Below the pieces are notes generated by a model. The model was not told where the DNA came from. It ran no database searches and saw nothing but the letters and a program-made list of their open reading frames with translations. This document shows, in pieces, positions 1,410 through 48,482 of a stretch of 64,000 bases of DNA. The stretch comes from Oscillospiraceae bacterium (GTDB taxonomy: Bacteria; Bacillota; Clostridia; Oscillospirales; Oscillospiraceae). The translations under genes were made by a program, and so were the position numbers. The number at the start of each line of letters is the position of its first letter. The first letter of the stretch is position 1. The stretch lies in assembly GCA_015067885.1 (NCBI GenBank), contig SVLO01000003.1, positions 1 through 64,000 on the forward strand. The letters are read 5' to 3'.

Positions 1410-1422
1410 GAGAAGAACGATG

Positions 1423-1452
1423 GGAGGCAGGCTTTCGGCCTGCCTCCTTTCT
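1423..1452 (+). terminator. rho-independent terminator after yigZ
   Basis: A perfect 10-bp stem (GGAGGCAGGC at 1423-1432 with GCCTGCCTCC at 1438-1447) with a 5-nt loop is followed by a short T-run. Confidence 0.75.
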
Positions 1453-1526
1453 GCGTTTTGGGCAAATATTCTTGCTAAAAAAGCGGGATTTCTTTCATAA
1501 AAGGTATATCCAAAAGGGCGGAATTG

Positions 1527-1535
1527 TGGTATGAT
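1527..1535 (+). promoter_or_regulatory. extended -10 promoter of the lipoprotein operon
   Basis: TGGTATGAT is an extended -10 element (TGn-TATGAT) about 64 bases before the lipoprotein start. No good -35 box is seen at the usual distance, as expected for extended -10 promoters. Confidence 0.45.
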
Positions 1536-1598
1536 ACACAATAGAAAAATATATTCCGTTTTTTACGAGGACGGACGGAGGAAAGGAGCGGTGGACAA

Positions 1599-2972
1599 AT
1601 GAAGAAAAGAGCGCTGTTGACGGCTGTGGTCATGGCTCTTTGCACGTTGCTGACGGGCTGCTTCCCCTGGTCGGCGGAGGACTCCTACCAGTTGCCCAAA
1701 CCGCCCCGGGATTACGAAAATCTGAACGCCGCCGTGAATAAGACCCGACGGGAACTGGCGGTGGAATTCTCCGCCACGGTGGAGGATGTACCTCCCTCTG
1801 CCGGTGACAACACCTCTGCCGTCCAGTTGCTGGATATGGACGACGACGGCGTGCAGGAAACGGCGGTGACCTTTTTCCGCGTGGTGGGCGCGCAGGAGCC
1901 GTTGCGCATTTGCTTTTTTACCCAGCAGCCGGACGAGAGCTACGCTCTGACCGGCGAGATCAAGGGCGAGGGGGACGGCATTTACGCCATCCACTACGCC
2001 GACGTTGACGGTATCCGCCACCCGGTGACAGACCGGGCCCGCAAAGAAGTGGTGGTCAGCTGGCAGTTGGGCAGTCAGGCCAATTATATGGGCATCTACG
2101 CGGTGGGTGACCAGGGCGGACAGATGCTGGCCGCGGCGGTCTATGACAGCTACGTTCTGACGGATATGGACCAAAACGGCCTGATGGAAGTGGCCATAGG
2201 CACCATGGACCGGACGACGAATACAGGAAAAGTGACCCTGTACGGCTGGAACACCGACGAGGACATTATGACCACGCAGGAGGTTCCCCTCAGCACCGGT
2301 GCAACGGCGATCCGCAATATGCGCTTTAACTTCGTCAAGGATTTTTCACCCGCGCTCTATGTGGTCAGCGACCTTGCCGACGGCAGCGCCGCGGTGGACC
2401 TTGTTGCGGTGAAGGGCGGCCAGCCCACCAATTTGACGCTGGATTCGGAAACCCTGGTCAGCCGCGAAAACAGCAACAACTACCGCAACCTGCCCCTGAG
2501 CGACGTAAATGGGGACAATGTTTTGGAACTGCACCGGCCGCGACAGCTGAATTCCTACGTCAATGTGGACGGCGCGTGGCTGGCCGATTGGGTCCAGTAT
2601 GATGCCCGGGGTCGGGCCAGCACCATCTGTACCACCTACCACTGTGAGGTGGATGGCTGGTATCTGGTCATTCCCGAGCATTGGCAAAACCGCCTGGTCA
2701 TCTACCGCAACGATACCGTCAGCGGACAGCGGACGGTGGTGTTCGCTCTGTGGCAGGGTGAGGATAAAGAACCCATGCCCTTTTTAAGTATTTACCGCCT
2801 GACCGGCGCCAGCCGCAGTCTGCGGGCCACCAGCGGTAATCGGTTCATTTTGGCGGAGGACAGCAACACCATCTATGCCGCCAGCTTTTACAGCACATGG
2901 AATTGCGGCCTGGACGAGAATGGCCTGCTGGAAAACTTCCGCCTGATCGTCAGCAGTTGGTCCGGTGAATGA
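1599..2972 (+). CDS. secreted lipoprotein of a two-component operon
   Basis: A 457-residue predicted lipoprotein: a short basic start, a hydrophobic segment and a lipobox LTGC (Cys21) mark it for signal peptidase II. GGAGGAAAGGAGCGG upstream supports the start. Three Asp-rich loops, DMDDDGVQE, DMDQNGLME and DVNGDNVLE, are spaced through the mature part and resemble the calcium-binding loops of FG-GAP/VCBS repeats, so an extracytoplasmic beta-propeller-like fold is a reasonable inference. It is followed after 16 bases by a response regulator and then by its histidine kinase, so it may feed an envelope signal to the kinase or be an output of it. No enzymatic motif was recognised and the substrate or ligand is unknown. 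Confidence 0.7.
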   Translation: MKKRALLTAVVMALCTLLTGCFPWSAEDSYQLPKPPRDYENLNAAVNKTRRELAVEFSATVEDVPPSAGDNTSAVQLLDMDDDGVQETAVTFFRVVGAQEPLRICFFTQQPDESYALTGEIKGEGDGIYAIHYADVDGIRHPVTDRARKEVVVSWQLGSQANYMGIYAVGDQGGQMLAAAVYDSYVLTDMDQNGLMEVAIGTMDRTTNTGKVTLYGWNTDEDIMTTQEVPLSTGATAIRNMRFNFVKDFSPALYVVSDLADGSAAVDLVAVKGGQPTNLTLDSETLVSRENSNNYRNLPLSDVNGDNVLELHRPRQLNSYVNVDGAWLADWVQYDARGRASTICTTYHCEVDGWYLVIPEHWQNRLVIYRNDTVSGQRTVVFALWQGEDKEPMPFLSIYRLTGASRSLRATSGNRFILAEDSNTIYAASFYSTWNCGLDENGLLENFRLIVSSWSGE

Positions 2973-2988
2973 GAAAGGAGCCTTTCGG

Positions 2989-3675
2989 ATGAAAAAGGTA
3001 CTTGTCCTTGAAGATGAAGAGAATATCCGCAGCTTTGTGGTCATCAACCTCAAGCGCGCCGGTTACGATACGGTGGAGGCGGCCAGCGGGGAGGAGGCCC
3101 TTGCCCAGCTGAAAAAGCACCCCAACATCGGTGTGGCGCTGCTGGATCTGATGCTGCCCGACATGGATGGGTTTGAGGTGTGTCGCCGTATCCGCAGCAC
3201 CAACAACAAGATCGGCATCATCATGCTCACCGCCCGCACCCAGGAGATGGACAAAGTCACCGGGCTTATGAGCGGTGCCGACGACTATGTGACCAAGCCC
3301 TTCTCCCCGGCGGAGCTGACCGCCCGGGTGGATGCCCTGTTCCGTCGCACCGGTGGCGAGCCTATCCCCGAACCCGGGGAGGTGTTTTGCCATCCCTTCC
3401 TGCTCAACACCCGCAACCGCACGCTGGAGAAGAACGGCCAGCGGGTCAAGCTGACTCAGGTGGAGTACGGCCTGGTCAAGCTGTTTATGGAAAACCCCGG
3501 CAAGGCCATGAGCCGGGAGGAGATTTTGGACGCCGTATGGGGCAAGGACTACTTTGGCGAGCTGAAAATCGTGGATGTCAACATCCGGCGTGTGCGTATT
3601 AAGATCGAGGACGACGCCCAAAACCCCGAATTTATTACCACCGTGTGGGGTTACGGGTACAAGTGGGGGGCCTGA
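2989..3675 (+). CDS. OmpR/PhoB-family response regulator
   Basis: A 228-residue two-component response regulator. The receiver domain (about 1-120) has the acidic pocket EDEE near residues 8-11, the phosphoacceptor Asp53 in LLDLMLPDMDG, and Lys103 in the VTKPFSP loop. The C-terminal winged-helix domain (about 130-228) shows the typical LTQVEYGLVKLF, SREEILDAVWG and TVWGYGYKW elements of DNA-binding OmpR regulators. AAGGAG at 2975-2980 supports the ATG at 2989 over an in-frame ATG at 2965 that lies inside the lipoprotein gene. It is the middle gene of lipoprotein-regulator-kinase, and phosphorylation by the next gene product is the natural expectation. Targets are not evident. Confidence 0.93.
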   Translation: MKKVLVLEDEENIRSFVVINLKRAGYDTVEAASGEEALAQLKKHPNIGVALLDLMLPDMDGFEVCRRIRSTNNKIGIIMLTARTQEMDKVTGLMSGADDYVTKPFSPAELTARVDALFRRTGGEPIPEPGEVFCHPFLLNTRNRTLEKNGQRVKLTQVEYGLVKLFMENPGKAMSREEILDAVWGKDYFGELKIVDVNIRRVRIKIEDDAQNPEFITTVWGYGYKWGA

Positions 3676-3713
3676 GGCTCCAAATCGAACCATAAAGAGA
3701 AGGAGGTGCGACC

Positions 3714-5141
3714 ATGAAAAAATTTACCGGGATGAAAAACAAAGCGAAGATCCGCGGAATTCGCCAGCGCTGGCTGGCAAACAGTATCAGCGTGGTGCTG
3801 GTCATGGTCGTGCTGGCGGTGGCGGCCTTTTCCGTGGCCATGGCCCGCTACTACTACGACGCCATGGAGGAGGGGTTGAAGGCCCGTGCCTCCAGTGCCG
3901 CCTCCTTTTTCCGCAACTATACCGAGGCGGAGTATCTCCGGGCCGCCAAGAGCTATGTGGACAACTTCAGCGAGAAGAATAAGCTGGAATTGCAGTTTCT
4001 TGAGCCGGATGGGTCCATTCTGTACTCCAGCTACGGCCTGACCACCGGCACCATGCCCGGCACGTCGGATATACGCGGCGCCTTTGAAAACACGGTGATG
4101 GACCAGTGGCAGGGGCGCGACCCCTCCACCGGGGAGCGGGTCATGGCGGTGACGGCGCCGGTGCTGTATCGCGGTAACCTGGTGGGCGGCGTGCGGCTGG
4201 TCACCTCCATGGCGCAGGTGGACCGACAGTTGTGGACCGCCGCGGGTGCTGTGGCGCTGATCGGCTTTGCTCTGCTGGCCATGCTGTATATCTCCAACCT
4301 CTATTTTGTCCGCTCCATCATCGAACCGCTGGCCGGCGTGACCGAAACCGCCCGCCGCATTGCTGACGGCAGCTACGGTATCCAAATGGAGAAAAGCTAC
4401 AACGACGAAATTGGTGAGCTGACCGACGCCATCAACGATATGTCGTTGAAGATACGCCAATCGGAAAAGGTGCAGACGGAGTTTATTTCCTCCGTTTCCC
4501 ACGAACTGCGCACCCCTCTGACCGCCATCAACGGCTGGGCGGAAACCATCATGAATGGGGAACTGCACGAGCCTGAGGACGTGCAAAAGGGCATGGGTAT
4601 CATCGTCAGTGAGGCCCGCCGCCTGACCAATATGGTGGAGGAGCTGCTGGAATTCTCCCGCATCTCCGATGGGCGCTTCACCCTGACGGTGGAGTCGCTG
4701 GACCTGAAGGCGGAGCTGGAGGATGCGGTGTACACCTACCGGGAGTTTTTCCGCCGGGACGGAATTCAACTGCATTACTTTGACTGCCCGGAGGAGAGTA
4801 TTCCCGTGTCCGGCGACCCGGAACGGCTGCGTCAGGTGTTCTGCAATCTGCTGGACAACGCCGCCAAACACGGCGGTGCCGGTAAACGCATTGACGTGAC
4901 CGTCCGCGTGGAAGAGGCGGCGGCCCGCATCTCCATCCGGGACTACGGCGCCGGCATCCCGGAGGAGGAACTTCCCTTCGTCAAAAATAAGTTCTACAAA
5001 GGCAGCTCCAAGGCCCGGGGCAGCGGCATCGGCCTTGCGGTGTGTGACGAGATCGTGGAGCGCCACGGTGGCAGCCTGACCCTGAGCAATGCGGAGGAGG
5101 GCGGCTGCGTGGCCGACATCTGGCTGCCGATTGGAACATAA
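3714..5141 (+). CDS. membrane sensor histidine kinase
   Basis: A 475-residue sensor kinase paired with the regulator just upstream. It has transmembrane helices at about 23-44 and 173-198 framing an extracytoplasmic sensor of roughly 125 residues, a HAMP linker (about 196-250), a HisKA dimerisation domain with the phospho-accepting His263 in VSHELRTPLT, and a C-terminal ATPase with an N-box (NLLDNAAKH), G1 (DYGAGIPEEE) and G2 (GSGIGLAV) motifs. The architecture is that of PhoR/ResE-type kinases without a PAS domain. GGAGGTGCGACC precedes the ATG. What it senses cannot be read from the sequence; the co-transcribed lipoprotein is a candidate accessory. Confidence 0.93.
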   Translation: MKKFTGMKNKAKIRGIRQRWLANSISVVLVMVVLAVAAFSVAMARYYYDAMEEGLKARASSAASFFRNYTEAEYLRAAKSYVDNFSEKNKLELQFLEPDGSILYSSYGLTTGTMPGTSDIRGAFENTVMDQWQGRDPSTGERVMAVTAPVLYRGNLVGGVRLVTSMAQVDRQLWTAAGAVALIGFALLAMLYISNLYFVRSIIEPLAGVTETARRIADGSYGIQMEKSYNDEIGELTDAINDMSLKIRQSEKVQTEFISSVSHELRTPLTAINGWAETIMNGELHEPEDVQKGMGIIVSEARRLTNMVEELLEFSRISDGRFTLTVESLDLKAELEDAVYTYREFFRRDGIQLHYFDCPEESIPVSGDPERLRQVFCNLLDNAAKHGGAGKRIDVTVRVEEAAARISIRDYGAGIPEEELPFVKNKFYKGSSKARGSGIGLAVCDEIVERHGGSLTLSNAEEGGCVADIWLPIGT

Positions 5142-5154
5142 GTTCGAAAAAGTG

Positions 5155-5183
5155 TTGCATTTTGTCAGCCGTGCTGATAGAAT
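5155..5183 (+). promoter_or_regulatory. sigma-A-type promoter for DUF1385-prmC
   Basis: TTGCAT (5155-5160) and TAGAAT (5178-5183) are 17 bases apart, about 40 bases before the DUF1385 start. Confidence 0.6.
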
Positions 5184-5222
5184 AAAAGTCGAAATAAGGC
5201 GCGCGGCGCCGAAGGAGTATCC

Positions 5223-6209
5223 ATGAGCAAACGCAAAAAAAAGGAAGCCTGCTGTTCCGGCGGGTTCAAGACCACCTGCGGCGGTCAGGCCCTGATTGAG
5301 GGCATTATGATGCGCGGCCCGAAGAAGCAGGCGGCGGTGGTCCGCCGCGCTGACGGCGAGCTGGAAATTAAAGAGCAGGAGCTGCACCCCCTGCGGGAGA
5401 AGTGTCCTGTTTGGGGCTGGCCCCTGGTGCGGGGCGTGGTGACTTTTTTGGACTCCATGGTCAACGGCGTGAAGATGCTGATGTGGTCGGCGGAGTTCTA
5501 CCCCGAGGAGGGCGACGGTCCCGCACAGGAGCCGTCCAAGTTTGAGAAATGGCTGGAAAAAAAGCTGGGCAGCGCCAAATTTACCTCCCTGCTCATCACC
5601 ATCGCGGTGATTTTAGGTATCGGCCTTTCCGTTGTGCTGTTCTTCCTGCTGCCCACCCTGCTGGGCGGGTTCGTAAAACTGTTCACCGACTCCATGCTGG
5701 TGCGCAACGTGGCGGAAAGCGTGCTGAAAATCGTGATATTCCTGGCCTATTTGGCCATTTGCTCCCGCACCAAGGACATCCACCGGGTGTTCCAGTACCA
5801 CGGCGCGGAGCATAAGGCCATCTTCTGCTATGAGCAGGGGCTGCCCCTGACGGTGGACAACGTCCGTACCCAGCCCCGGCGCCATCCCCGCTGCGGCACC
5901 AGTTTTCTGTTCGTGGTCATCATCGTGTCCATCCTTGTGTCCACCGTTGTGTTCTCCTTTTGGCAGGTGGACCACTTCCTGCTGCGCTTTGGGGCGCATT
6001 TGGTCATGCTGCCCCTCATCGTGGGCGTCAGTTACGAGTTTAACCGCTGGTGCGGTCGCCATGACAACGCCCTGACCCGGGTGCTGGTGGCCCCCGGCCT
6101 TTGGATGCAGGGCTTTACCACCTATGAGCCGGATGACAGTATGATCGAGGTGGCCATCCGGGCCCTGGAGCTGGTGCTGCCGGAGGAAAAGGGCAGCGAC
6201 GAGTGGTGA
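5223..6209 (+). CDS. DUF1385 membrane protein (YqhQ-like)
   Basis: A 328-residue polytopic membrane protein of the DUF1385 family (Bacillus YqhQ). The N-terminal cytoplasmic part carries the family hallmark GGQALIEGIMMRGPK, and the family motif RVFQYHGAEHKAIFCYE occurs after the second membrane helix pair. Hydrophobic helices are visible around LLITIAVILGIGLSVVLFF, SVLKIVIFLAYLAI, FLFVVIIVSILVSTVVFSF and LVMLPLIVGVSY. Function is unknown, though the gene very commonly sits before prmC and prfA in Clostridia, as it does here with prmC (25 bases downstream). GAAGGAG lies just before the ATG. Confidence 0.88.
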   Translation: MSKRKKKEACCSGGFKTTCGGQALIEGIMMRGPKKQAAVVRRADGELEIKEQELHPLREKCPVWGWPLVRGVVTFLDSMVNGVKMLMWSAEFYPEEGDGPAQEPSKFEKWLEKKLGSAKFTSLLITIAVILGIGLSVVLFFLLPTLLGGFVKLFTDSMLVRNVAESVLKIVIFLAYLAICSRTKDIHRVFQYHGAEHKAIFCYEQGLPLTVDNVRTQPRRHPRCGTSFLFVVIIVSILVSTVVFSFWQVDHFLLRFGAHLVMLPLIVGVSYEFNRWCGRHDNALTRVLVAPGLWMQGFTTYEPDDSMIEVAIRALELVLPEEKGSDEW

Positions 6210-6234
6210 ATTAGGAATTAGGAGTTGAGGTCCT

Positions 6235-7098
6235 ATGGCGACAACTTACAATAATCTGTATTTGGATACCCGCAACCGCCTGCGTAAGGCCGGCGTGACC
6301 CAGGCTCAGACCGAAGCGCGGGAGCTGGTGTGCTACGCTTCGGACAAGACCAAGGAGCAGTTGTTCCGGGATATGTCCCTGTACGCCTCCGCCGAGCTGG
6401 AGCGCCGGGTGGAGGAGCTGGTCAGCCGCCGCCTGGAGGGAGAGCCGGTGGCCTACATCGTGGGCGAGTGGGAATTCTACGGTTTGCCCCTGGACGTGTC
6501 CCGTGAGGTGCTGATCCCCCGGGACGATACCGAGGTGCTGGCCCGCCTTGCCATTGAAAAGACACAGGCGGCAGGGGAGGGGGCCCGGGTGCTGGACCTG
6601 TGCGCCGGTACCGGCTGTGTGGGCCTTGCCATCGCGGCCAACGCACCCCAGTGCCGTGTGGTGCTGGCCGATCTGTCCGAAAGCGCCCTGCGTCTGTGCA
6701 AGCAGAACGTGCGCCGCAACGGCCTGAACGCCCGGGTGACCTGCATGAGCGTCAACGCCATGGAGCAGCCCTCCTCCGTGCTGTGGGACTTTGACGTCAT
6801 CGCCTGCAACCCGCCCTACATCCCCTCCGCCGACATTGACGGTCTGGAGGACTCCGTTCGCCGGTATGAGCCGCGCATGGCCCTGGACGGCGGCGAGGAC
6901 GGCCTTGACTTCTATCGCTTTATCTCCGCCAAGTGGAAGTCCGCCCTGCGTCTGGGCGGCAGTCTGATCTTTGAAGTGGGTATCGGTCAGGCTGATCAGG
7001 TGGCGGAAATCATGGCGGAAAACGGTTTTGAGAATATCGTCATCACTCCGGATACCCGGGACATCCCCCGGGTGGTGCAGGGTACCATTGAGGGGTAA
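6235..7098 (+). CDS. prmC: peptide chain release factor N5-glutamine methyltransferase
   Basis: PrmC (HemK) methylates the glutamine of the GGQ motif in release factors RF1 and RF2 using S-adenosylmethionine. The 287-residue protein has the N-terminal helical substrate domain (about 1-80), the SAM-binding motif DLCAGTGCVGLA (121-132), and the catalytic NPPY at 192-195 that marks N5-glutamine methyltransferases. TAGGAGTTGAGG precedes the ATG. It is probably co-transcribed with the DUF1385 gene. The usual neighbour prfA is absent; recA follows instead, so the two gene blocks have been joined in this lineage. Confidence 0.93.
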   Translation: MATTYNNLYLDTRNRLRKAGVTQAQTEARELVCYASDKTKEQLFRDMSLYASAELERRVEELVSRRLEGEPVAYIVGEWEFYGLPLDVSREVLIPRDDTEVLARLAIEKTQAAGEGARVLDLCAGTGCVGLAIAANAPQCRVVLADLSESALRLCKQNVRRNGLNARVTCMSVNAMEQPSSVLWDFDVIACNPPYIPSADIDGLEDSVRRYEPRMALDGGEDGLDFYRFISAKWKSALRLGGSLIFEVGIGQADQVAEIMAENGFENIVITPDTRDIPRVVQGTIEG

Positions 7099-7178: not shown

Positions 7179-8288
7179 ATGGCAACGAAGAAGCCTGCGG
7201 TGGAGAGCGCCGCACCCGCCTCCGACAAGAAGAAAGCATTGGAAACTGCCGTGGCGCAGATCGAGCGCACCTACGGTAAGGGTTCCATTATGCGCCTGGG
7301 CGAGAATGCCGATGTCATGGTGGATACCATTCCCACCGGTTCTTTGGCGCTGGATTTGGCGTTGGGCATCGGCGGCCTGCCCAAGGGCCGCATCATTGAA
7401 ATCTATGGGCCGGAGTCCTCCGGTAAGACCACCCTGGCCCTCCACGTGGTGGCCGAGGCTCAAAAGCGCGGCGGCGAGGTGGCCTTCATCGACGCCGAAC
7501 ACGCTCTGGACCCCACCTATGCCCGGGCCCTGGGCGTGGACATTGACTCCATGCTCATTGCTCAGCCCGACACCGGCGAACAGGGCCTTGAGATCTGCGA
7601 GGCGCTGGTCCGCTCCGGCGCCATCGACGTGGTGGTGGTGGACTCCGTGGCCGCTCTGACCCCCCGGGCCGAGATCGAGGGCGACATGGGCGACAGCCAC
7701 GTGGGCCTGCTGGCCCGCCTGATGAGTCAGGCACTGCGCAAGCTGGCCGGCTCCATCGCCAAGACCAACTGCATCGTTATTTTTATCAACCAGCTGCGTG
7801 AGAAGGTCGGCGTCATGTATGGCAACCCCGAGGTGACCACCGGTGGCCGCGCGCTGAAGTTCTATTCCTCCGTGCGTATCGACGTGCGGCGCATCGAGGC
7901 TATGAAGAATGGCTCCGAGGTCATCGGCAACCGCACCCGGGCCAAGATCGTGAAGAACAAGGTGGCGCCCCCCTTCCGCGAGGCGGAGTTCGATATCCTC
8001 TACGGCGAGGGCATCTCCAAGTGGGGCGAGCTGCTGGACATCGGCGTGAAGCTGGACCTGGTGCAGAAGTCCGGCTCCTGGTTTGCCATGGGCGAGTTGC
8101 GCCTGGGCCAGGGCCGCGACGCCGCCCGGGAGTTCCTGAAGGACAATCCCGAGCTGGCTGAGCAGTTGGAGGCGGATATCCGTGCCAACTCCTACAAGCT
8201 GCTGAGCAAGCAGGGTCAGGCCGCTGCCCGTGCCGCCGGCCGGGCGGTGGACATCTCTGCCGAGGACTTTGAGGATCGGGAAGACTGA
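7179..8288 (+). CDS. recA: recombinase RecA
   Basis: RecA forms filaments on single-stranded DNA and drives strand exchange and the LexA-cleaving SOS signal. This 369-residue copy has the N-terminal oligomerisation helix, the Walker A loop GPESSGKT (77-84), the Walker B region [12 protein letters not shown], the L1/L2 DNA-binding loops ([25 protein letters not shown]) and an acidic C-terminus ending EDFEDRED. Length and motifs are normal. GAAAGGATGAACG precedes the ATG. I looked for a Gram-positive LexA box in the 80-bp leader and saw none. recX follows after 2 bases. Confidence 0.98.
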
Positions 8289-8290
8289 CC

Positions 8291-8908
8291 GTGCGAATCG
8301 AGGAACTCAAGCCGTCCCAACGGGTCAAGGGCCGCTGGCTTGCCGTGCTGGAGGATGGAAGCATCCTGCGTGTGGGGGAGGGGGAGGTCATCGACTTCGC
8401 CCTCTGCTCCGGCAAGGAGCTGACCGAAGACGAGGCCGCCCGCCTGACCGCCGCCGCCCACAGGTCCGATCTGAAAAACAAGGCCCTGGACCTGCTGACC
8501 CGCAAACCCCAGTCCCGATGGGAACTGGAGCGCAAGCTGGGCGAGTGGGGCGCGGGGGAGGAGGAAACCGAGTCCATCTGTGCAAGGATGGAGGAGTTGG
8601 GCTTTCTCAACGATGGGTCCTACGCCCGGCAGGTGGTGTGCCACTACGCGGCCAAGGGTTACGGCGTGCGCAAGCTGCGGGACGAGCTGTACCGCCGGGG
8701 CGTACCCCGGGACCTGTGGGACCAGGCCCTTGCGGCGGCAGAGGCCCCCGCAGATGCCATAGATGCCTTTTTGCGGAAAAAGCTGGCAGGAAGGCAGCCT
8801 GACCGGGTGGAACTGAAAAAACTGTCCGACGCTTTGGCCCGCAGGGGCTACGGGTGGGAGGATATTCGCAGTGCCATCGGGCGCTTGGGCATTTACCCCG
8901 ACGAGTGA
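8291..8908 (+). CDS. recX: regulatory protein RecX
   Basis: RecX modulates RecA by capping or destabilising its filaments. This 205-residue protein starts with GTG two bases after the recA stop, so translation is probably coupled. It contains the three-helix tandem repeats typical of RecX: ALDLLTRKPQSRWELERKL, EELGFLNDGSYARQVV and GYGVRKLRDELYRRGVP, followed by DAFLRKKLAG and RRGYGWEDIRSAI. The N-terminal extension of about 60 residues before the first repeat is common in Clostridia. The recA-recX pairing supports the call. Confidence 0.92.
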   Translation: MRIEELKPSQRVKGRWLAVLEDGSILRVGEGEVIDFALCSGKELTEDEAARLTAAAHRSDLKNKALDLLTRKPQSRWELERKLGEWGAGEEETESICARMEELGFLNDGSYARQVVCHYAAKGYGVRKLRDELYRRGVPRDLWDQALAAAEAPADAIDAFLRKKLAGRQPDRVELKKLSDALARRGYGWEDIRSAIGRLGIYPDE

Positions 8909-8930
8909 ACTGCGACTTAGGAGCGATGTT

Positions 8931-10256
8931 ATGTCTTATACCATAGCCTTTATCTCTCTGGGCTGCGCCAAAAATCTGGTCAATACCGAGCAGATGATGG
9001 CCCTGTGCCGGGACGCCGGATTTGTTGTGACCGGCCAGCCGGAGGGGGCCGATGTGGCGGTGTTGAACACCTGCGGCTTCATTGACGCGGCCAAGAGCGA
9101 GGCCATTGAGAACATTTTGGAACTGGGCCAAATGAAAGAGGAAGGAAAGCTGGGCAAGCTGTTGGTTGCCGGCTGCCTGTCCCAGCGGTATCCCGAGGAC
9201 ATCCTGCGGGAGCTGCCCGAGGTGGACGGTTTGCTGGGAACCGGCAGCTACACCGACGTGGTCCACGCCATCCACAGCCTGATGGAGGGCGACCAGCCCA
9301 CCTTCTTTGGCGATATACATAGCACTTTGGACGACGGCCCGCGCATGGTGACCACACCGCCCTACACGGCCTATTTGAAAATTGCGGAGGGTTGCAGCAA
9401 CGGCTGCGCCTTCTGCATTATTCCAAAGCTGCGGGGGCGTTACCGCAGTCGCAGCATGGGGTCTGTTTTGGCTGAGGCAAAGGCCCTTGCCGAGTCCGGG
9501 GTTCGGGAACTGGTCGTCATTGCCCAGGACATCACCCGCTACGGTTGGGATAAGAAGGACGGCACCAGTCTTGCGGGACTTTTGAGGGAGCTGTGTAAGC
9601 TGCCTTTCCGGTGGATCCGCCTGCACTACCTCTATCCCGAGGCGGTGACGGACGAACTCATTGAAGTCATTGCCGCCGAGTCCAAGATTTTGCACTATTT
9701 GGACATCCCCATCCAGCACTGTAATGACCGCATCCTCAAGGCCATGAACCGTCGGGGGACCAAGGCGGAGATCGTGGAACTGCTGGACAAGCTGCGCCGG
9801 GCCATCCCCGACGTGGTCATCCGTACCTCACTGATATGCGGCCTGCCCGGGGAAACCCAGGAGGAATTTGAGGAGCTGTGCGAGTTTTTGACCGAGCAGC
9901 GCCTGCAGCGGGCGGGGGTGTTTCCTTTCTCGCCGGAGGAGGGGACCAGGGCTGCCCAACTGCCTGACCAGGTAGATGCCGACGTGGCCCTCCACCGCAC
10001 CGAGCTGCTGGTGGAGCTGCAATCGCGTATCATGGACGAGTATAACGAGCAGCGCCTTGGCACGGTGATGGAAGTGTTGTGCGAGGGCTTTGACGAGGAA
10101 GAGGGCTGCTACGTGGGCCGGACCTACGCCGACTCGATGGACATTGACGGCCACGTGTACTTTACCGCCGCGGGGCGGCTGCAGCCGGGTGAGTTTGTCC
10201 CGGTGCTGATCACCGGCACCCAGGACGGCGACCTGACCGGCGAGATTGACGAATAA
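8931..10256 (+). CDS. rimO: ribosomal protein S12 methylthiotransferase RimO
   Basis: RimO is a radical-SAM enzyme that adds a methylthio group to an aspartate of ribosomal protein S12. The 441-residue protein has the N-terminal UPF0004 domain with three cluster cysteines (Cys12, Cys48, Cys82), the radical-SAM CxxxCxxC motif (Cys155, Cys159, Cys162), and a C-terminal TRAM domain. SLGCAKNLVNTE at the N-terminus and the KLRGRYRSR stretch after the cluster favour RimO over the tRNA enzyme MiaB. The start at 8931 follows TTAGGAG; an in-frame ATG at 8871 lies inside recX. The pgsA neighbour downstream is a frequent arrangement. Confidence 0.95.
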   Translation: MSYTIAFISLGCAKNLVNTEQMMALCRDAGFVVTGQPEGADVAVLNTCGFIDAAKSEAIENILELGQMKEEGKLGKLLVAGCLSQRYPEDILRELPEVDGLLGTGSYTDVVHAIHSLMEGDQPTFFGDIHSTLDDGPRMVTTPPYTAYLKIAEGCSNGCAFCIIPKLRGRYRSRSMGSVLAEAKALAESGVRELVVIAQDITRYGWDKKDGTSLAGLLRELCKLPFRWIRLHYLYPEAVTDELIEVIAAESKILHYLDIPIQHCNDRILKAMNRRGTKAEIVELLDKLRRAIPDVVIRTSLICGLPGETQEEFEELCEFLTEQRLQRAGVFPFSPEEGTRAAQLPDQVDADVALHRTELLVELQSRIMDEYNEQRLGTVMEVLCEGFDEEEGCYVGRTYADSMDIDGHVYFTAAGRLQPGEFVPVLITGTQDGDLTGEIDE

Positions 10257-10269
10257 GGAGAACATGAAA

Positions 10270-10839
10270 ATGAATGCTGCAAACAAGCTGACCCTGCTGC
10301 GGGTGATCATGATCCCGGCCTTTTTGGTGGTGCTGTATTTGGACGTCCCCTATGCCAACTGGATCGCGCTGGCGATTTTTGCGCTGGCCAGCCTGACCGA
10401 TCTGCTGGACGGCTACATTGCCCGCCACTACGATCAGACCACGGACTTTGGTAAATTCATGGACCCCCTGGCGGACAAGTGCCTGGTGGTGGCGGCCTTG
10501 CTGTGGTTTGTGCAGGGACACGGAAGCAACCTGCAGATGCCTGCCTGGGCGCTGCTGATCGTGATCGTGCGTGAGTTTGCTGTTAGCGGTCTGCGTATGC
10601 AGGCGGCGGCGGGCGGCAAGGTCATTGCTGCCGGCAAGTCCGGGAAAATCAAGACGGCGTCCACAATGGCCTGTATCTGTCTGATGCTGGTGCTGCCTGA
10701 GCTGGAGGCAATCAGCTTCTTCGCCAATTGGGGTGTGCTGGTGTTTGACGTGTGCGTGTGGATCATCGTGGCTACCACGGTGTACTCCGGTGTGGAGTAT
10801 TTGATCGTCAACCGCAAGGTGTTCTCCGGCATGAAGTAA
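10270..10839 (+). CDS. pgsA: CDP-diacylglycerol-glycerol-3-phosphate phosphatidyltransferase
   Basis: PgsA makes phosphatidylglycerol phosphate, the committed step of anionic phospholipid synthesis, in the membrane. The protein has several membrane helices and the CDP-alcohol phosphotransferase signature (D-G-x2-A-R-x8-G-x3-D-x3-D) seen in LLDGYIARHYDQ followed by FGKFMDPLADK. Two start codons compete: 10264 and 10270. AAGGAG at 10255-10260 is only 3 bases from the first but 9 from the second, so 10270 (MNAANKLTLLR) is preferred; the product is then 189 residues. The gene directly follows rimO and ends before a strong bidirectional terminator. Confidence 0.93.
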   Translation: MNAANKLTLLRVIMIPAFLVVLYLDVPYANWIALAIFALASLTDLLDGYIARHYDQTTDFGKFMDPLADKCLVVAALLWFVQGHGSNLQMPAWALLIVIVREFAVSGLRMQAAAGGKVIAAGKSGKIKTASTMACICLMLVLPELEAISFFANWGVLVFDVCVWIIVATTVYSGVEYLIVNRKVFSGMK

Positions 10840-10845
10840 GTAAAT

Positions 10846-10880
10846 AAAAAATTCCCGGAGCATAGCTCCGGGAATTTTTT
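10846..10880. terminator. bidirectional terminator between pgsA and lysC
   Basis: A near-perfect hairpin (AAAAATTCCCGGAGC, loop ATA, matching arm) with A- and T-runs on both sides serves the converging pgsA and lysC genes. Confidence 0.9.
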
Positions 10881-10895
10881 ATTTGAATGGAAGAA

Positions 10896-12119
10896 TTAAG
10901 CCTCGGCAAACTCACCGAAGAAACGGTCGTGGATGGCCTGAACGGCACGCTCGGCGTCCCGCTCGTCCACCAGGACGGACACCTTGATCTCGCTGGTGGA
11001 GATCATATTGATGTTGATGCCGGCGGAGAACAGTGCCTCAAACATCTTGCAGGCCACGCCGGAGTTGTTGGCCATGCCGGCGCCCACGATGGAGATCTTG
11101 GCGATCTTGTCGCTGACCTCGATGGCGTCAAAGCCGATGACCTCCTGATTGGCGCGCATGACCGCCTCGGCCTTGGCCATGTCGTCCTGGGACACGGTGA
11201 AGCTGATGTCCTTGGACTCCTCACGGCCGATGGACTGCAGGATGATGTCCACATTGACCTTTTCCTTGGCCAGCAGGGAGAAGATTTTGAATGCCATACC
11301 GGGCTTGTCGGTCAGGCCCACCAGAGCCACGCGGGCAACATTGGTGTCCTTGGCGACACCGCTGACATGAGTTTTTTCCATAGTTTTCACAACCTCCTTG
11401 ACTTTTGTTCCGGGTTTGCCGCTGAAACTGGAGAGAACCTCCATGTTGACATTGTAGCGCTTTGCCATTTCCACCGAGCGGTTGTGGAGTACCTGAGCGC
11501 CGAGGCTGGCAAGCTCCAGCATCTCGTCGAAGGTGATCTCATCCAGCTTCTTGGCGCCCTTGACCTTGCGGGGGTCGGCGGTGTAAACGCCGTCCACGTC
11601 GGTGTAGATCTGGCACAGGTCCGCGTGGAGGGAGGCGGCCAGAGCCACGGCGGAGGTATCGGAACCGCCGCGGCCCAGGGTGGTGATGTCGTCGTACTTG
11701 TTCAGGCCCTGGAAGCCGGTGACCAGCACGATCTTTTTCTTGTCCAGCTCCTTGCGGATACGGTCGGCGCGCACGCGCTTGATGCGGGCGGCGCTGTAGT
11801 TGGAGTCGGTGGCCACGCCGGCCTGCCAGCCGGTCAGAGAGATGACGGGGAGGCCCATGCCCTCGATAGCCATGGCGCACAGGGCCACGGAGATCTGCTC
11901 GCCGGTGGTCAGCAGCATATCCATCTCACGCTTGGAGGGGTTGGGGTTGATCTCCTTCGCCTTCTCGATGAGGTCGTCGGTGGTATCGCCCTGGGCGGAG
12001 AGGACGACGACCACGTCGTTGCCCTGTTTGTAGGTTTCGGTGATGATGCGGGCCACGTTCATCACGCGGTCACGGTCGGCCACGGAGGAGCCGCCGAATT
12101 TCTGTACGATAAGAGCCAT
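10896..12119 (-). CDS. lysC: aspartate kinase
   Basis: Aspartokinase phosphorylates aspartate, the first step toward lysine, threonine and methionine. The 407-residue protein begins with the kinase signature MALIVQKFGGSSVAD, and the catalytic domain extends to about residue 245. Two ACT domains follow (LVGLTDKPGMAFKIFSLL and ISIVGAGMANNSGVACKMFEAL), which bind the feedback inhibitors. Length is that of the Bacillus LysC/DapG type. TAGGAGGT precedes the ATG. It is the third gene of an ACT protein-hom-lysC operon, so transcription is likely linked to threonine or methionine synthesis rather than to lysine alone. Confidence 0.96.
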   Translation of the reverse strand: MALIVQKFGGSSVADRDRVMNVARIITETYKQGNDVVVVLSAQGDTTDDLIEKAKEINPNPSKREMDMLLTTGEQISVALCAMAIEGMGLPVISLTGWQAGVATDSNYSAARIKRVRADRIRKELDKKKIVLVTGFQGLNKYDDITTLGRGGSDTSAVALAASLHADLCQIYTDVDGVYTADPRKVKGAKKLDEITFDEMLELASLGAQVLHNRSVEMAKRYNVNMEVLSSFSGKPGTKVKEVVKTMEKTHVSGVAKDTNVARVALVGLTDKPGMAFKIFSLLAKEKVNVDIILQSIGREESKDISFTVSQDDMAKAEAVMRANQEVIGFDAIEVSDKIAKISIVGAGMANNSGVACKMFEALFSAGININMISTSEIKVSVLVDERDAERAVQAIHDRFFGEFAEA

Positions 12120-44222: not shown

Positions 44223-45731
44223 ATGGCTGAACAGATGAACAACAACCAGCAGCCCCAGGAGGAGAACCTGAGCCAACTGCTTCAAATTCGCCGCGACAAG
44301 CTCAAGGAATTGCAGGAGAGCGGCAACGACCCCTTCCAGATCACCAAGTACGAGGTCAACAACGACTCCGCCAACATCAAGGCCAACTTCGATGCCCTGG
44401 AGGGTACCTCCGTATCCATCGCCGGACGCCTGATGAGCAAGCGCGGCATGGGCAAGGTGTCCTTCTGCGACCTGCAGGACAAGTCCGGCCGCATCCAGCT
44501 CTACGCCCGCAAGGACGAGATGGACGAGGCGGAGTACGACCGCTTCAAGAAGTACGACATCGGTGACATCGTGGGTGTCGTGGGCGAGGTGTTCCGCACC
44601 CAGCGGGGCGAGATGTCTGTCCGCGTGCAGAAGGTGACCCTGCTGAGCAAGAACCTGCTGCCCCTGCCCGAGAAGTTCCACGGCCTGACCAGCACCGAGC
44701 TGCGTTTCCGTCAGCGCTACGTGGACCTGATGGTCAACCCTGAGGTCAAGCGCAACTTCGTTATCCGCTCCCAGTTCATCAAGTTCATGCGCAACTATTT
44801 GGATAATATGGAGTACATTGAGGTGGAGACTCCCGTGCTGAACACCATCGCCGGTGGCGCCTCTGCCCGTCCCTTCATTACCCACCACAACACGCTGGAC
44901 ATTGATATGTATATGCGCATCGCCACCGAGCTGCCCCTGAAGCGGCTCATTGTGGGCGGCATGGACCGGGTGTATGAGATCGGCCGCATCTTCCGTAACG
45001 AGGGTATGGACCCCAAGCACAACCCCGAGTTCACCACCGTGGAGCTGTATCAGGCCTACGCCGATTTCCACGATATGATGGACATTGCCGAGGGTATCAT
45101 CTCCGGCGCCGCCAAGGAGATTTTGGGTACCTATGAAGTGGAGTGGATGGGCGAGAAGATCGACCTGACCCCCGGTTGGCGCCGCCTGACCATGGTGGAT
45201 GCCGTCAAGGAGTACGCCGGCGTTGACTTCGGTGCCATCACCGACGACGCCGAGGCTGTGGCCGCCGCCAACGCCATTGGCGTGGAGCTGGCCGACGCCG
45301 CCGAGAAGACCTGGGGCAACGCCCTGTACGCCACCTTCGACCAGCGTGTGGAGGAGAAACTGATCCAGCCCACCTTCATCACCATGTATCCCGTGGAGGT
45401 CAGCCCCCTGACCAAGCGCAGCCCCGCCGATCCCCGCCTGACCGAGCGGTTTGAGCTGTTCGTCTGCCACAGCGAGCTGGCCAACGCCTACTCCGAGCTG
45501 AACGACCCCATCGACCAGCGGGAGCGGTTCCAAAAGCAGGTGGAGCAGCGCGAGCGCGGCGACGACGAGACCGAGATGATGGACGACGATTTCCTCACCG
45601 CCCTGGAGTACGGTATGCCTCCCACGGGCGGCATGGGTATGGGCATTGACCGCTGCGTCATGCTGCTGACCGGCCAGGATACCATCCGTGAGGTCATTCT
45701 GTTCCCCACGATGAAACCCCTCGCAGAGTAA
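44223..45731 (+). CDS. lysS: lysyl-tRNA synthetase (class II)
   Basis: A 502-residue class II LysRS with an N-terminal OB-fold anticodon-binding domain (SIAGRLMSKRGMGKVSFCDL) and the catalytic domain: motif 1 (FIKFMRNYLDNMEYIEVETP), motif 2 (FRNEGMDPKHNPEFTT) and motif 3 (GMGMGIDRCVMLL). The gene is complete, but its last codons are not original: an integrated element sits just behind ATGAAACCCCT and supplies the ending LAE. A matching fragment reading PTMKPLD-stop occurs at 48407-48431, the likely old 3' end. Its native terminator is now 2.7 kb away. Confidence 0.96.
   Translation: MAEQMNNNQQPQEENLSQLLQIRRDKLKELQESGNDPFQITKYEVNNDSANIKANFDALEGTSVSIAGRLMSKRGMGKVSFCDLQDKSGRIQLYARKDEMDEAEYDRFKKYDIGDIVGVVGEVFRTQRGEMSVRVQKVTLLSKNLLPLPEKFHGLTSTELRFRQRYVDLMVNPEVKRNFVIRSQFIKFMRNYLDNMEYIEVETPVLNTIAGGASARPFITHHNTLDIDMYMRIATELPLKRLIVGGMDRVYEIGRIFRNEGMDPKHNPEFTTVELYQAYADFHDMMDIAEGIISGAAKEILGTYEVEWMGEKIDLTPGWRRLTMVDAVKEYAGVDFGAITDDAEAVAAANAIGVELADAAEKTWGNALYATFDQRVEEKLIQPTFITMYPVEVSPLTKRSPADPRLTERFELFVCHSELANAYSELNDPIDQRERFQKQVEQRERGDDETEMMDDDFLTALEYGMPPTGGMGMGIDRCVMLLTGQDTIREVILFPTMKPLAE
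45704..45721 (+). repeat. left attachment-like repeat at the lysS 3' end
   Basis: The 18-bp sequence CCCCACGATGAAACCCCT, ending 10 bases before the lysS stop codon, recurs with two mismatches at 48407-48424. Confidence 0.75.
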
Positions 45732-45803
45732 AAACCCACAAAAATCAGGTTTTGACAGCGTTTGCGGCGTTTTGTTAATCCAAAAATGAAACACGTCAGA
45801 GGG

Positions 45804-45873
45804 TTTACGACAAATTTACGACAAATGAATTTTTGAACTCTTCTTGAACCTTACGACAAACCGTTGTCGTAAA
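45804..45873. repeat. left arm-type repeat cluster
   Basis: TTTACGACAAA occurs in perfect tandem at 45804-45814 and 45815-45825. TTACGACAAA recurs at 45851-45860, and its complement TTGTCGTAAA is at 45864-45873. Confidence 0.8.
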
Positions 45874-45948
45874 CCTATAGGTTTTCATTAAAAGTTTTTG
45901 AAGTAGATTTCTGTTCAAGAGTATATCAATAATGTTCTACCGATATTC

Positions 45949-45976
45949 GACACTGCGGGACTTGTCCTGCAGTGTC
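45949..45976. promoter_or_regulatory. dyad operator of the HTH-NTPase-CYTH gene
   Basis: A 13-bp dyad (GACACTGCGGGAC around TT, one G-T pair) overlaps the -35 box of the promoter below, which suggests autoregulation by the HTH domain encoded next. A hairpin terminator is the alternative. Confidence 0.5.
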
Positions 45977-45990
45977 TTTCGATTTATAAT
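45962..45990 (+). promoter_or_regulatory. promoter of the island cargo genes
   Basis: TTGTCC and TATAAT are 17 bases apart, 29 bases before the start codon. Confidence 0.7.
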
Positions 45991-46018
45991 AAGATTGTAA
46001 GAAAGAGGGTGATAACTC

Positions 46019-47323
46019 ATGAACGATTACTCTTTTGGGAATAAGATCCTGGAGTTGAGAACGCAGCATAATCTTTCCCAGACTGAGTTGGCTGAAATGG
46101 TTGGCGTGACCAACAAGGCTGTTTCAAAATGGGAAACAGGAAAGTCGAAACCAACAACTAATGTAATCAGAAAACTGGCAGCGCTTTTCAAAATTGATAT
46201 TAACAAGCTCCTGTCAATGAGAGATGAGGAAAGGAAGATGGAAATTTCAAAGATTGTCATAACCGGCGGTCCTTGCGCAGGCAAGTCCACCGCTATGAGC
46301 TGGGTACAAAACGCATTTACACAGATGGGATATACTGTCCTGTTTGTACCTGAGACTGCTACTGAGCTTATTACAGGCGGCGTTGCACCGTGGACGTGCG
46401 GGACGAATGCAGAGTATCAAAAATGTCAGTTAAAGCTGCAGATTGAAAAGGAAAATATCTTTGAGCAGGCAGCTCGTACTATGGCGGTTGATAAAGTTCT
46501 TATCGTTTGTGATCGTGGCACACTTGATAACAAGGCATATATGGATGACATTGAATTCGCAGAAGCAATACAGTTTATCGGCTCCAATGAAGTAGAGCTT
46601 CGTGACAACTATGATGCGGTGTTCCATCTGGTTACTGCGGCGAAAGGTGCTGAAGAGTTTTATACGACAGCAAACAACGCGGCCAGAACAGAAACCGTTG
46701 AGGAAGCAGCTGCACTTGATGACAAACTAATTTCGGCTTGGACCGGTCATCCTCATCTACGCGTAATTGATAACACCTCCACCTTTGAAGATAAGATGAA
46801 AAAACTGGTTGCAGAGATTGCATCTTTCTTAGGAGAACCCGAACCGTATGAAATTGAACGTAAATATCTGATTGAATATCCGGATATCAAATGGCTTGAG
46901 AGCAATCCTTCCTGCCAACGCATAGAGATTATACAGACATATCTTAACAGTGCTGCCGGCGAGGAAGTTCGCGTTCGTCAGCGCGGTGTAGATGGAAACT
47001 ATATCTATTTCCAAACTATCAAGAGAAAAGTATCTGATGTGAAACGCGTTGAAATTGAGAGACGCCTATCGCAAGCAGAATACTTGAAGCTCTTGATGGA
47101 GGCCGATACAACTAAGAAACAGATTCGCAAGACAAGATACTGCCTTACATATGAGAATCAGTATTTTGAGATTGATGTATATCCGTTCTGGACAGACAAG
47201 GCTATCGCAGAAATCGAACTTAGCGACGAAAATGCTGAGATTGTATTTCCTAAGCAAATCAAAGTTATTAAAGAAGTTACCGATGATGATTCGTTTAAAA
47301 ATGCATCGTTAGCCAATATCTAA
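46019..47323 (+). CDS. HTH regulator fused to an AAA_28-type NTPase and a CYTH domain
   Basis: A 434-residue three-part protein. Residues about 6-62 are an XRE helix-turn-helix (LSQTELAEMVGVTNKAVSKWE). From about 76 follows a P-loop NTPase of the AAA_28 type, with Walker A GGPCAGKST and the Asp of LIVCDRGTLDNKAYMDD. From about residue 278 a CYTH-type triphosphate-binding domain begins (EIERKYLIEYPDI, then EEVRVRQRG, YFQTIKRK and EIERRLS with paired charged residues on strands). The NTPase-CYTH half resembles TTD14-like proteins; the HTH plus AAA_28 part recalls NadR. A regulator-kinase for an imported metabolite is an inference. AAAGAGGGTG precedes the ATG. Base composition is far more AT-rich than in the flanks. 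Confidence 0.82.
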   Translation: MNDYSFGNKILELRTQHNLSQTELAEMVGVTNKAVSKWETGKSKPTTNVIRKLAALFKIDINKLLSMRDEERKMEISKIVITGGPCAGKSTAMSWVQNAFTQMGYTVLFVPETATELITGGVAPWTCGTNAEYQKCQLKLQIEKENIFEQAARTMAVDKVLIVCDRGTLDNKAYMDDIEFAEAIQFIGSNEVELRDNYDAVFHLVTAAKGAEEFYTTANNAARTETVEEAAALDDKLISAWTGHPHLRVIDNTSTFEDKMKKLVAEIASFLGEPEPYEIERKYLIEYPDIKWLESNPSCQRIEIIQTYLNSAAGEEVRVRQRGVDGNYIYFQTIKRKVSDVKRVEIERRLSQAEYLKLLMEADTTKKQIRKTRYCLTYENQYFEIDVYPFWTDKAIAEIELSDENAEIVFPKQIKVIKEVTDDDSFKNASLANI

Positions 47324-47342
47324 GTAGAGAGAGGCGAGCAAA

Positions 47343-47882
47343 ATGAATCAATCCACCAAAAAAATCTGTATCACTGCGATGGGAATTTCGCTATTTGTTG
47401 TTCTATCTCTTTGCTTGCAGGTTCCAGTATTTGAAAATTACTATCTATGTTTAGGGTACGTTGTAATGACTGTTTTCTGTTATTATATGGGACCGATTAG
47501 TGGTATGGCTGTTGGTGGCTTTGGCGTTGTTTTGTATTGTCTGCTTACAAGTGGGTTGCGTGGTATGCCTGGATGGGCAATTGGGAACCTTGTCATTGGA
47601 CTTATTGTTGGTTTAACCTGCAGGATAACATTAAGAATGAAAAATCAATGGTTAAGACATTTGATTATAGGGTTTTCTATCTTAGTATCAGTTGCCATAG
47701 CGATGCTTGGAATTAAATCTCTTGTTGAGGCTGTGATATATGCACAGCCAATGGTCCTTAGGATAATTAAAAACACATATGCATTTGTGGCGGATGTAGT
47801 TGTAATGATGGTTAGTTTGCCGATATGTGTGAGTCTTAAGTCGGTATTACATAAAACATTTGGTGACGCGATTGCTAAATAA
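47343..47882 (+). CDS. ECF-transporter S-component-like membrane protein
   Basis: A 179-residue protein with five to six membrane helices, 19 bases behind the NTPase gene and so probably in one operon. The segment GPISGMAVGGFGVVLYCLLTS, GMPGWAIGNLVIGLIVGLTC and short basic loops are typical of substrate-binding (S) components of ECF vitamin transporters, which use a shared energising module encoded elsewhere. The substrate is not identified. GAGAGGCG precedes the ATG. Family assignment is by pattern only. Confidence 0.65.
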   Translation: MNQSTKKICITAMGISLFVVLSLCLQVPVFENYYLCLGYVVMTVFCYYMGPISGMAVGGFGVVLYCLLTSGLRGMPGWAIGNLVIGLIVGLTCRITLRMKNQWLRHLIIGFSILVSVAIAMLGIKSLVEAVIYAQPMVLRIIKNTYAFVADVVVMMVSLPICVSLKSVLHKTFGDAIAK

Positions 47883-47935
47883 AAGACACGCCTAAATTAA
47901 AAGATATAGATTCAAATACAAAGGAGAACGATTAT

Positions 47936-48058
47936 ATGGAACAATTCGTAAAGATGCCATATGAACGCTTGGAAACAAAAAAAGAACGTCAAATGCAGTT
48001 ATATGTTATTATGCAGAATGCAATCAACGAGATGCATAACAACGGTAATGCTGTCTGA
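47936..48058 (+). CDS. small 40-residue protein of the island
   Basis: A short gene with AAGGAG 9 bases before the ATG. The product starts MEQFVKMPYERLETKKERQM and is charged and helical, ending in NEMHNNGNAV. The next reading frame overlaps it by 11 bases and looks like the natural continuation, so this may be the first half of a gene broken by a frameshift near 48050. No family was recognised. Confidence 0.5.
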   Translation: MEQFVKMPYERLETKKERQMQLYVIMQNAINEMHNNGNAV

Positions 48059-48221
48059 GGGCAAAGTTGTTTATGGCGAGAAACCTGAAATAAATAAAAA
48101 CGAGCATGAGAATAGCGCTCCTGTAAATGCGACTCAAAACAATTCTGCCACCCCAAAAACCGCCACACAAACACCGAAAAAGAAACTTGGATTTTTTGCG
48201 AAAATCTTTAAAAAAGATTAA
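48048..48221 (+). CDS. 57-residue reading frame, possibly the shifted second half
   Basis: It begins MLSEGKVVYGEKPEINKNEH, has a Pro/Thr/Asn-rich middle and ends with a basic amphipathic tail (KKKLGFFAKIFKKD), a plausible membrane-surface anchor. It has no ribosome binding site of its own and overlaps the preceding small gene, so translation would need coupling or a frameshift. It may belong with that gene as one protein of about 95 residues. Confidence 0.4.
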   Translation: MLSEGKVVYGEKPEINKNEHENSAPVNATQNNSATPKTATQTPKKKLGFFAKIFKKD

Positions 48222-48267
48222 ATTGGCTAGGATATTCATCGTTGGACAAAGAAAACACCCTCGTTTT

Positions 48268-48292
48268 TTTACGACGTTTCTTACGACAAACC
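48268..48292. repeat. right arm-type repeats
   Basis: TTTACGAC and TTACGACAAACC repeat the unit seen at the left end of the island, here 115-140 bases inside the right attachment-like site. Confidence 0.7.
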
Positions 48293-48406
48293 AAATAAAG
48301 TTATGACAGTCTGTGTAAGGTTATGTACTTTAATGAAAACGGTTTGGATTAACGAAGTCAGGGAATGAGAGGTTAAATCAATGTATAACACACGCTCAGT
48401 GGAAAT

Positions 48407-48431
48407 CCCCACCATGAAGCCCCTGGACTAA
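48407..48431 (+). pseudogene. displaced 3' end of lysS (attR-like site)
   Basis: CCCCACCATGAAGCCCCT at 48407-48424 continues GGACTAA, reading PTMKPLD and a stop. The intact lysS ends FPTMKPLAE, so this is best read as the old C-terminus pushed aside by integration. Confidence 0.7.
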
Positions 48432-48445
48432 CTGACAAAAATGAA

Positions 48446-48482
48446 AACCGGGTCTGCACCTCTGTGCGGACCCGGTTCTTTT
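48446..48482. terminator. probable original lysS terminator
   Basis: AACCGGGTCTGCAC pairs with GTGCGGACCCGGTT (one G-T pair) around CTCT, then CTTTT. It follows the lysS fragment by 15 bases, as a native terminator would, and may now serve the converging zinc-ribbon gene. Confidence 0.85.

Follow-up and report, generated by a model that had tools for sequence, protein, structure and literature searches.

An integrase-less insert with attachment-type ends behind lysS in an Oscillospiraceae genome, probably a cis-mobilisable element

What is the AT-rich DNA that separates the lysine--tRNA ligase gene lysS from its own terminator in an Oscillospiraceae bacterium (GenBank assembly GCA_015067885.1, contig SVLO01000003.1, positions 1 to 64,000, hereafter the window), and how could a segment with no recombinase of its own have come to lie there? 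The stretch 45722-48406 is a foreign insert at the lysS 3' end. It is best called a cis-mobilisable element (CIME), a reading we hold to be probable, with the ends of lysS-specific tyrosine-integrase elements and with cargo in place of the integrase and transfer genes. The features that define the insert and its surroundings are as follows.

44223-45731, plus strand: lysS, lysine--tRNA ligase, the gene providing the host attachment site (Pfam and NCBIfam matches)
45704-45721, plus strand: attL core CCCCACGATGAAACCCCT, matching 48407-48424 at 16 of 18 positions; the same core adjoins integrase-bearing elements
45722-45879, plus strand: left arm region, including the element-encoded lysS end (similarity to the left ends of L036, G412, G145 and G218)
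48232-48406, plus strand: right arm region with TTACGACG at 48269, TTACGACA at 48281 and GATTAAC (alignment and offsets)
48407-48424, plus strand: attR core CCCCACCATGAAGCCCCT, matching the left copy at 16 of 18 positions
48425-48431, plus strand: displaced native lysS end GGACTAA, an ending of the same kind as in relatives
48446-48477, plus strand: native lysS terminator hairpin, with 14-nt arms 48446-48459 and 48464-48477 that are 93% complementary

A first-pass annotation, made from the sequence alone, had proposed that an 18-bp near-copy of the lysS end recurs 2.7 kb downstream and continues there as a different ending followed by a terminator. Both copies were located, with two differences, and the right one runs on as GGACTAA to 48431, with the hairpin from 48446 reaching -26.6 kcal/mol in a 45-nt fold. 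The left core has no further match in the window at up to four mismatches on either strand, and the calculated chance of a copy with at most two mismatches is 0.0027 per window (both strands) or 0.00006 per 3 kb. Base composition changes between the cores, G+C being 39.5% in 45732-48407 against 60.8% in lysS and 57.7% in the whole window, and G+C at third codon positions being 0.42, 0.33 and 0.38 in the insert genes against 0.87 in lysS. The annotation had also supposed that the element restores the reading frame as LAE. This agrees with what relatives show: the window lysS ends in PTMKPLAE-stop and the closest relatives (G024 and G033, lysS 94-95% identical over the aligned part) in PTMKPLD-stop followed by the terminator, so that the last lysS codons (LAE-stop) come from the insert.

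The predicted empty site was found in relatives as well. lysS was sought in 60 genomes, of which 36, not counting the window's own, belong to the same genus, and was found in all 60, in some only partially; 29 lysS loci were fetched from other genomes, 28 of the same genus (L003-L030) and one (L031) of another family. An empty site was defined by a short-form lysS, a 45-nt fold of -20 kcal/mol or lower starting no more than 45 nt from the stop, and no arm sites, and 14 of the 28 same-genus loci have this form. The remaining 14 comprise five with TTACGACA arms, three with TTTACACCAG arms and six that fit none of these classes (L010, at a contig end; L008 and L028, with a long-form lysS; L011, L013 and L021). 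The core match extends into the lysS 3' ends of relatives, where a failure to do so had been named as a ground for abandoning the insertion. The window genes from beyond 52 kb have matches about 0.1-2.2 kb behind lysS in G024, G020 and G010, three of the nine loci examined for synteny; L125, L126, L127, L128 and L131 gave no match to them and L003 stops at a contig end. For the genes at 48.5-51.4 kb, the threshold used gave no match in any of the nine loci.

Inside both ends lie the clusters of putative arm-type integrase sites that had been announced. The motif TTACGACAAA has four copies in the 64-kb window, all within the insert, three at the left (45805, 45816 and 45851) and one at the right (48281), the latter accompanied by TTACGACG at 48269. 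Measured from the core, the left end has GTTAATCC at +70, TTACGAC at +101, +112 and +147 and an inverted copy at +162 (45866), and the right end has TTACGACG at -138, TTACGACA at -126 and GATTAAC at -60. An inverted pair is indeed present at the left end (45802-45813 and 45864-45875), with a length of 12 bp and not the 11 bp first given. Left ends similar to that of the window occur in L036 (171/175), G412 (160/181), G145 (157/182) and G218 (148/180). Among 14 left ends compared, the three direct arms are conserved to within one base in 13, being absent from the fecal record MT835475.1, and the inverted arm is exact in 11; among 11 right ends, the arm at -126 (within one base) occurs in all and that at -138 (within one base) is exact in eight.

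Do elements with their own integrase carry the same ends? The annotation had expected recombinase-bearing relatives with the same arms, and these were found at lysS. When the DNA behind the integrase was aligned with the window right end (48225-48425), identities were 168/204 in G218, 159/208 in G145, 149/209 in G215 and 146/206 in G342, compared with a mean of 0.55 and a maximum of 0.59 in 50 shuffles of the G218 end. A right-end pattern search recovered seven places in six of 394 genomes of the order (control 0 among the matches listed), and all six genomes also have left arms. A full-length integrase match precedes three of the seven right ends (G215, G218 and G342) and none precedes two (G000 and G049); the other two belong to G145, one behind a truncated integrase and one behind a C-terminal remnant read by eye. 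Both window ends thus match larger integrase-bearing lysS elements, in which the two ends follow in the same order and the tyrosine integrase stands at the right end, and the arm spacing agrees within one base apart from the exceptions given above. The G218 integrase, the only one scanned for it, combines PF02920 (the Tn916 arm-binding domain) with PF00589.

The clearest case is G215, in which lysS, left arms, integrase and right end stand on one contig and 41.7 kb separate the lysS core from the right core. Ten ORFs (open reading frames) of this element were scanned, which revealed a TraG-P-loop/AAA_10 ATPase that we take to be VirB4-like, a CHAP protein, a sortase, a SpaA protein and a ParB-like protein. 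In G145 two elements stand in tandem at lysS. The integrase of the first is 279 aa long and is missing its N-terminal part; the second (L320, 427-15629) has a right end, before which, on reading by eye, nothing but the final codons of the integrase is left. Such loss of the integrase could be one way in which an element like that of the window arises. MT835475.1 (L312), deposited as an unverified Bacteriophage sp. from a fecal sample, includes the end of a lysS gene; 19.8 kb further along come a short integrase match, covering residues 150-422, and a right end 84% identical over 187 nt. TTACGAC was not found in its first 320 nt. The record probably represents host DNA with an integrative element in it. 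A plasmid collection gave no match.

The left arms are likewise concentrated at lysS. A search with the left-arm pattern TTACGACANNTTTACGACAAA gave 18 places in 16 of the 394 order genomes (none for the reversed pattern among the matches listed) and hits in three of 391 genomes of the class, the window's own included, the other two (G698 and G531) also having the pattern beside lysS. Within the stretches of up to 20 kb looked at, it stands on the lysS contig in 15 of the 16 order genomes, close behind the end of lysS in 12 of them (own genome included in both counts) and behind a further core in G417, G046 and G124. Ten viral contigs carry the pattern, and five of them (L174, L176, L178, L179 and L180) have in succession an integrase, the right arms and either a lysS core or an end resembling that of lysS; L177 has integrase and arms, with no core found, and L175, L181, L182 and L183 depart from this arrangement. 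Integrase relatives in viral contigs were taken as the best 80 of at least 334. Two observations were set aside. Short left-arm stretches in G145, G412, G256 and G218 were considered as scars, but no count of scars is made, because in G145 the right end lies 15.7 kb off and the stretch there is the left end of a larger element. The right-end pattern in three viral contigs was also discounted, L186 having a core-like match with four mismatches on the wrong side and L187 a single arm-like match only.

The same module was found in a distant host. In a Clostridia metagenome-assembled genome from cattle caecum (locus L036, genome G060), 2030 of 2163 nt (94%) agree with the window module, left end included, and the main protein of 434 aa is 99% identical, yet the lysS of that genome is only 58% identical to the window lysS at the amino-acid level. 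The locus has lysS-type cores at 9686, 12054 and 14125, with the module between cores and the third core 2.1 kb on, and lysS lies about 3.6 kb upstream of the locus start, apparently on the same contig (32,796 nt). The upstream neighbour contains a tyrosine integrase (7797-9113), a small ORF and a MobV-like gene scoring 75 bits, under the family cut-off of 100. Its arms, read by eye, are TTTACCCC, and integrases of a different arm type therefore seem to share the lysS site. The window and L036 copies diverge behind the second cargo gene, which encodes the S component of an energy-coupling factor (ECF) transporter.

These results support the CIME interpretation of the first-pass annotation through the empty sites, the integrase-bearing relatives with the same arms and the fit to the definition given in the available parts of the published accounts (PMC5704250, PMC7563491). 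The insert is flanked by attL and attR, as judged from core repeats, end alignments and arm offsets, and its three proteins include neither integrase or recombination functions nor conjugation or mobilisation functions. Its own integrase and a relaxase, expected of an integrative and mobilisable element (IME) or an integrative and conjugative element (ICE), are both lacking among them. A Tn916-type arm-binding integrase does occur in elements with the same arms, as seen for the G218 integrase only. An origin by deletion may be suggested by the homology of the ends to those of integrase-bearing elements and by the integrase remnant in G145, and an accreted arrangement is seen in L036.

However, several observations weigh against this interpretation. 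The two cores differ at two of 18 positions. L036 has a right end of a different type, which agrees with that of the window at 120/215, close to the level of the shuffled sequences; this copy was therefore rebuilt, and the same integrase may be unable to cut it. G069 has three left-arm matches with no lysS near, hence the motif is not exclusive to lysS; five of the ten viral contigs (L175, L177, L181, L182 and L183) have no lysS core found, and the left-arm pattern is missing from five of the ten order genomes whose integrases are closest (integrases at least 58% identical to that of L174 occurring in 10 of the 394, two of them partial). In G218 and G342 the integrase and lysS are on different contigs, and no relaxase was found among the ten G215 proteins scanned. 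The window's own genome has four tyrosine-recombinase family matches, but no close lysS-type integrase was found there, the best match to the L174 integrase having 31% identity, and no partner is therefore visible in the 87% complete assembly.

From the sequences we infer that the element may have arisen by deletion and would be excised and transferred with the aid of a helper, for which the integrases described above are candidates. A relative with a matching integrase would enter the cell and insert beside the window element at the shared lysS core; the window element could then be excised and transferred together with the helper, or be cut out alone by the helper integrase. In the recipient it would re-enter at a lysS 3' end, the reading frame being restored by its own last codons.

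Among the other explanations, it is unlikely, though by no means negligibly so, that the insert is a fossil, an element of the same origin that has become fixed and immobile, which would be compatible with a CIME origin. The lack of integrase and relaxase among its proteins, the lack of a close integrase in its own genome and the two core mismatches are in keeping with this, whereas every arm site retains its position and a distant host carries the module at 94% identity, so that at least a recent ancestor moved. A wider proposal, which we regard as a doubtful conjecture, is that the lysS 3' end in these Clostridia serves as a shared, cassette-like docking site, at which integrase-less modules with standard ends and interchangeable cargo (the kinase-CYTH gene with a transporter gene, DUF4932, perhaps MmeI-type with ApeA-type HEPN genes) form a non-autonomous lineage kept by integrases acting in trans, with recombination swapping left and right ends between arm types. 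It is somewhat less credible that a dedicated satellite family exists, in which elements with conserved ends spread as a lineage of their own by means of the lysS-element integrase in trans. In its favour, two integrase-less elements with different cargo keep both ends, that of the window and that of G049 (1.4 kb, with one DUF4932 gene), and the window module, its right end excepted, has reached another genome nearly unchanged. However, there are two examples only, G145 shows plain decay, and the window right end is closer to that of G218 (168/204) than to that of G049 (144/209), so no separate lineage of ends is visible.

Movement by RecA-independent recombination across the short repeats, a mechanism suggested for the E. 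coli microcin H47 island, is very improbable: such excision is reported for that recombinase-less island in the portions available (PMC5426353, PMC3191183), but it leaves unexplained the conserved arm sites at fixed distances and the same insertion site in many hosts. That no insertion took place, the lysS end and the genes behind it simply varying and the 18-bp match being due to chance, has next to no probability given the empty sites, the base composition, the chance expectation of 0.0027 and the relatives of both ends, even though two of the 28 genus lysS genes (L008 and L028) have a longer C-terminus. A phage satellite was also considered and rejected, as no phage packaging or capsid-hijacking family appeared among the three proteins in the family scans, PHROGs not having been searched.

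CIMEs of streptococci are reportedly described by Pavlovic (2004) and Bellanger (2011). Two other papers, in the parts available, describe their accretion and where decayed elements stand with respect to the target gene, and one of these, a survey of S. salivarius, judges CIMEs to be very prevalent and its method to miss lone ones (PMC5704250, PMC7563491). The window element resembles streptococcal CIMEs as they appear there in being flanked by att sites, in lying at the 3' end of a housekeeping gene and in having no integrase or transfer genes. Classical examples are 1.2-13 kb long with cargo and stand in tandem with ICEs or IMEs, the decayed element farther from the target, and the same holds for L036 and G145; the window copy, in contrast, stands alone, a situation undetectable by the stated method of the survey (PMC7563491). 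It differs further in host group, in cargo and in its target, lysS instead of rpmG, rpsI, fda, rplL or tRNA-Lys. The extracts available on other lysS elements name this gene as a known ICE site in streptococci (PMC4701971) and give a 13-bp repeat, TTCCC[g/a/c]AC[a/g]ATGA, for the enterococcal vanD ICE (PMC10765050), a repeat that the window left core, TTCCCCACGATGA, fits at the same target gene. Both kinds of ICE are far larger and conjugative, and the comparison made here is of the target gene and the vanD repeat (PMC4701971, PMC10765050). The microcin H47 island is similarly small, recombinase-less and repeat-flanked, but no responsible recombinase was found for it according to the parts available (PMC3191183, PMC5426353), whereas arm sites and candidate integrases were identified here. 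A further comparison is with G215, G218, G342, G145 and MT835475.1, which share the core, right end and arm spacing with the window and, save MT835475.1, the left end; the first three encode an integrase and the other two a short one, G215 also a conjugation-type ATPase, and the window element none of these.

The kind of element is therefore already known, since CIMEs, accretion and the lysS ICE site have been published; what is added here is the particular element, the host group in which it occurs and the integrases that are candidates for its partner. A limited and loosely worded literature search found no report of CIMEs in this group, and absence is not claimed. A lone CIME could nevertheless be recognised here, together with integrase-bearing relatives at matching arm distances and most of the module in two distant hosts, and the right-end signature (GATTAAC at -60, arms at -138 and -126) offers a way of finding such hitch-hikers without an integrase. 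This ties CIMEs to lysS, which the accessible part of one report gives as the target of the enterococcal vanD ICE (PMC10765050).

What the insert carries is of other kinds than recombinases, in agreement with the annotation. The ORF list and Pfam show no recombinase among its three main ORFs, and Pfam and NCBIfam scans of the three proteins show no relaxase, coupling protein or VirB4.

46019-47323, plus strand: cargo 1, 434 aa, XRE-type helix-turn-helix (HTH), AAA_28 P-loop and CYTH domains (PF01381, PF13521, PF01928)
47343-47882, plus strand: cargo 2, 179 aa, ECF-transporter S component of a riboflavin/folate-type family (PF07155 above cut-off, scores under the NCBIfam cut-offs)
47961-48221, plus strand: cargo 3, 86 aa, ORF with no family match

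The AAA_28 family includes the NadR kinase domain. For the 434-aa protein, relatives of solved structure exist for the CYTH domain (2fbl, 3typ) and for the HTH region, and a MobT match in the latter reaches 17.5 bits against a cut-off of 600. In a scan of named genomes, from which the best 80 of 110 homologue loci were kept, the P-loop is intact in all 78 homologues that cover it, ExExK is present in 72 of 80, and 13 of 80 loci have an S-component gene in the same orientation no more than 1 kb away. The protein may act as a regulator-kinase, trapping or modifying a vitamin-like compound after its import. A defence role was considered and is not claimed, because the PADLOC matches are confined to the HTH region (best in residues 4-76, one to 103). 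Anaerostipes has homologues close to lysS 3' ends as well (about 0.9 kb behind a lysS extension in L068 and L070, 2.4 kb in L067), and in L044 a homologue follows an integrase and a lysS-type core; the gene therefore recurs at lysS in several settings.

Further repeats and cargo were seen behind other lysS genes. In five same-genus loci (L009, L018, L024, L026 and L029) a TTACGACA pair, 11 nt apart, lies about 95-110 nt behind the lysS stop, with no cargo evident in the first 700 nt of three such loci read further (L117-L119); these are possibly micro-CIMEs or left ends. Tandem TTTACACCAG repeats, the first two spaced 11 nt apart, stand shortly behind lysS in L012, L014 and L022 (G031, G027 and G008), and tandem TTGACAACAA repeats do so in L031 (G053), both perhaps being arm sites of other lysS integrases. 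In the viral contig L182, TTACGACA arms are found beside a more distant integrase adjoining what we take to be a tmRNA gene, a setting from which the arm motif again appears not to be exclusive to lysS. Behind the same left end as that of the window, L171 (G190, 1374-6622) carries an MmeI-type restriction-modification enzyme and an ApeA-type HEPN protein, likely defence cargo, with no right end identified, and G312 carries a leucine-rich-repeat protein, with a right core and no right arms seen. In L172 (G124), a small module between two lysS-type cores encodes, at 10352-10990, a protein with a match to the ADP-ribosyltransferase exoenzyme family (39.7 bits, cut-off 23.4).

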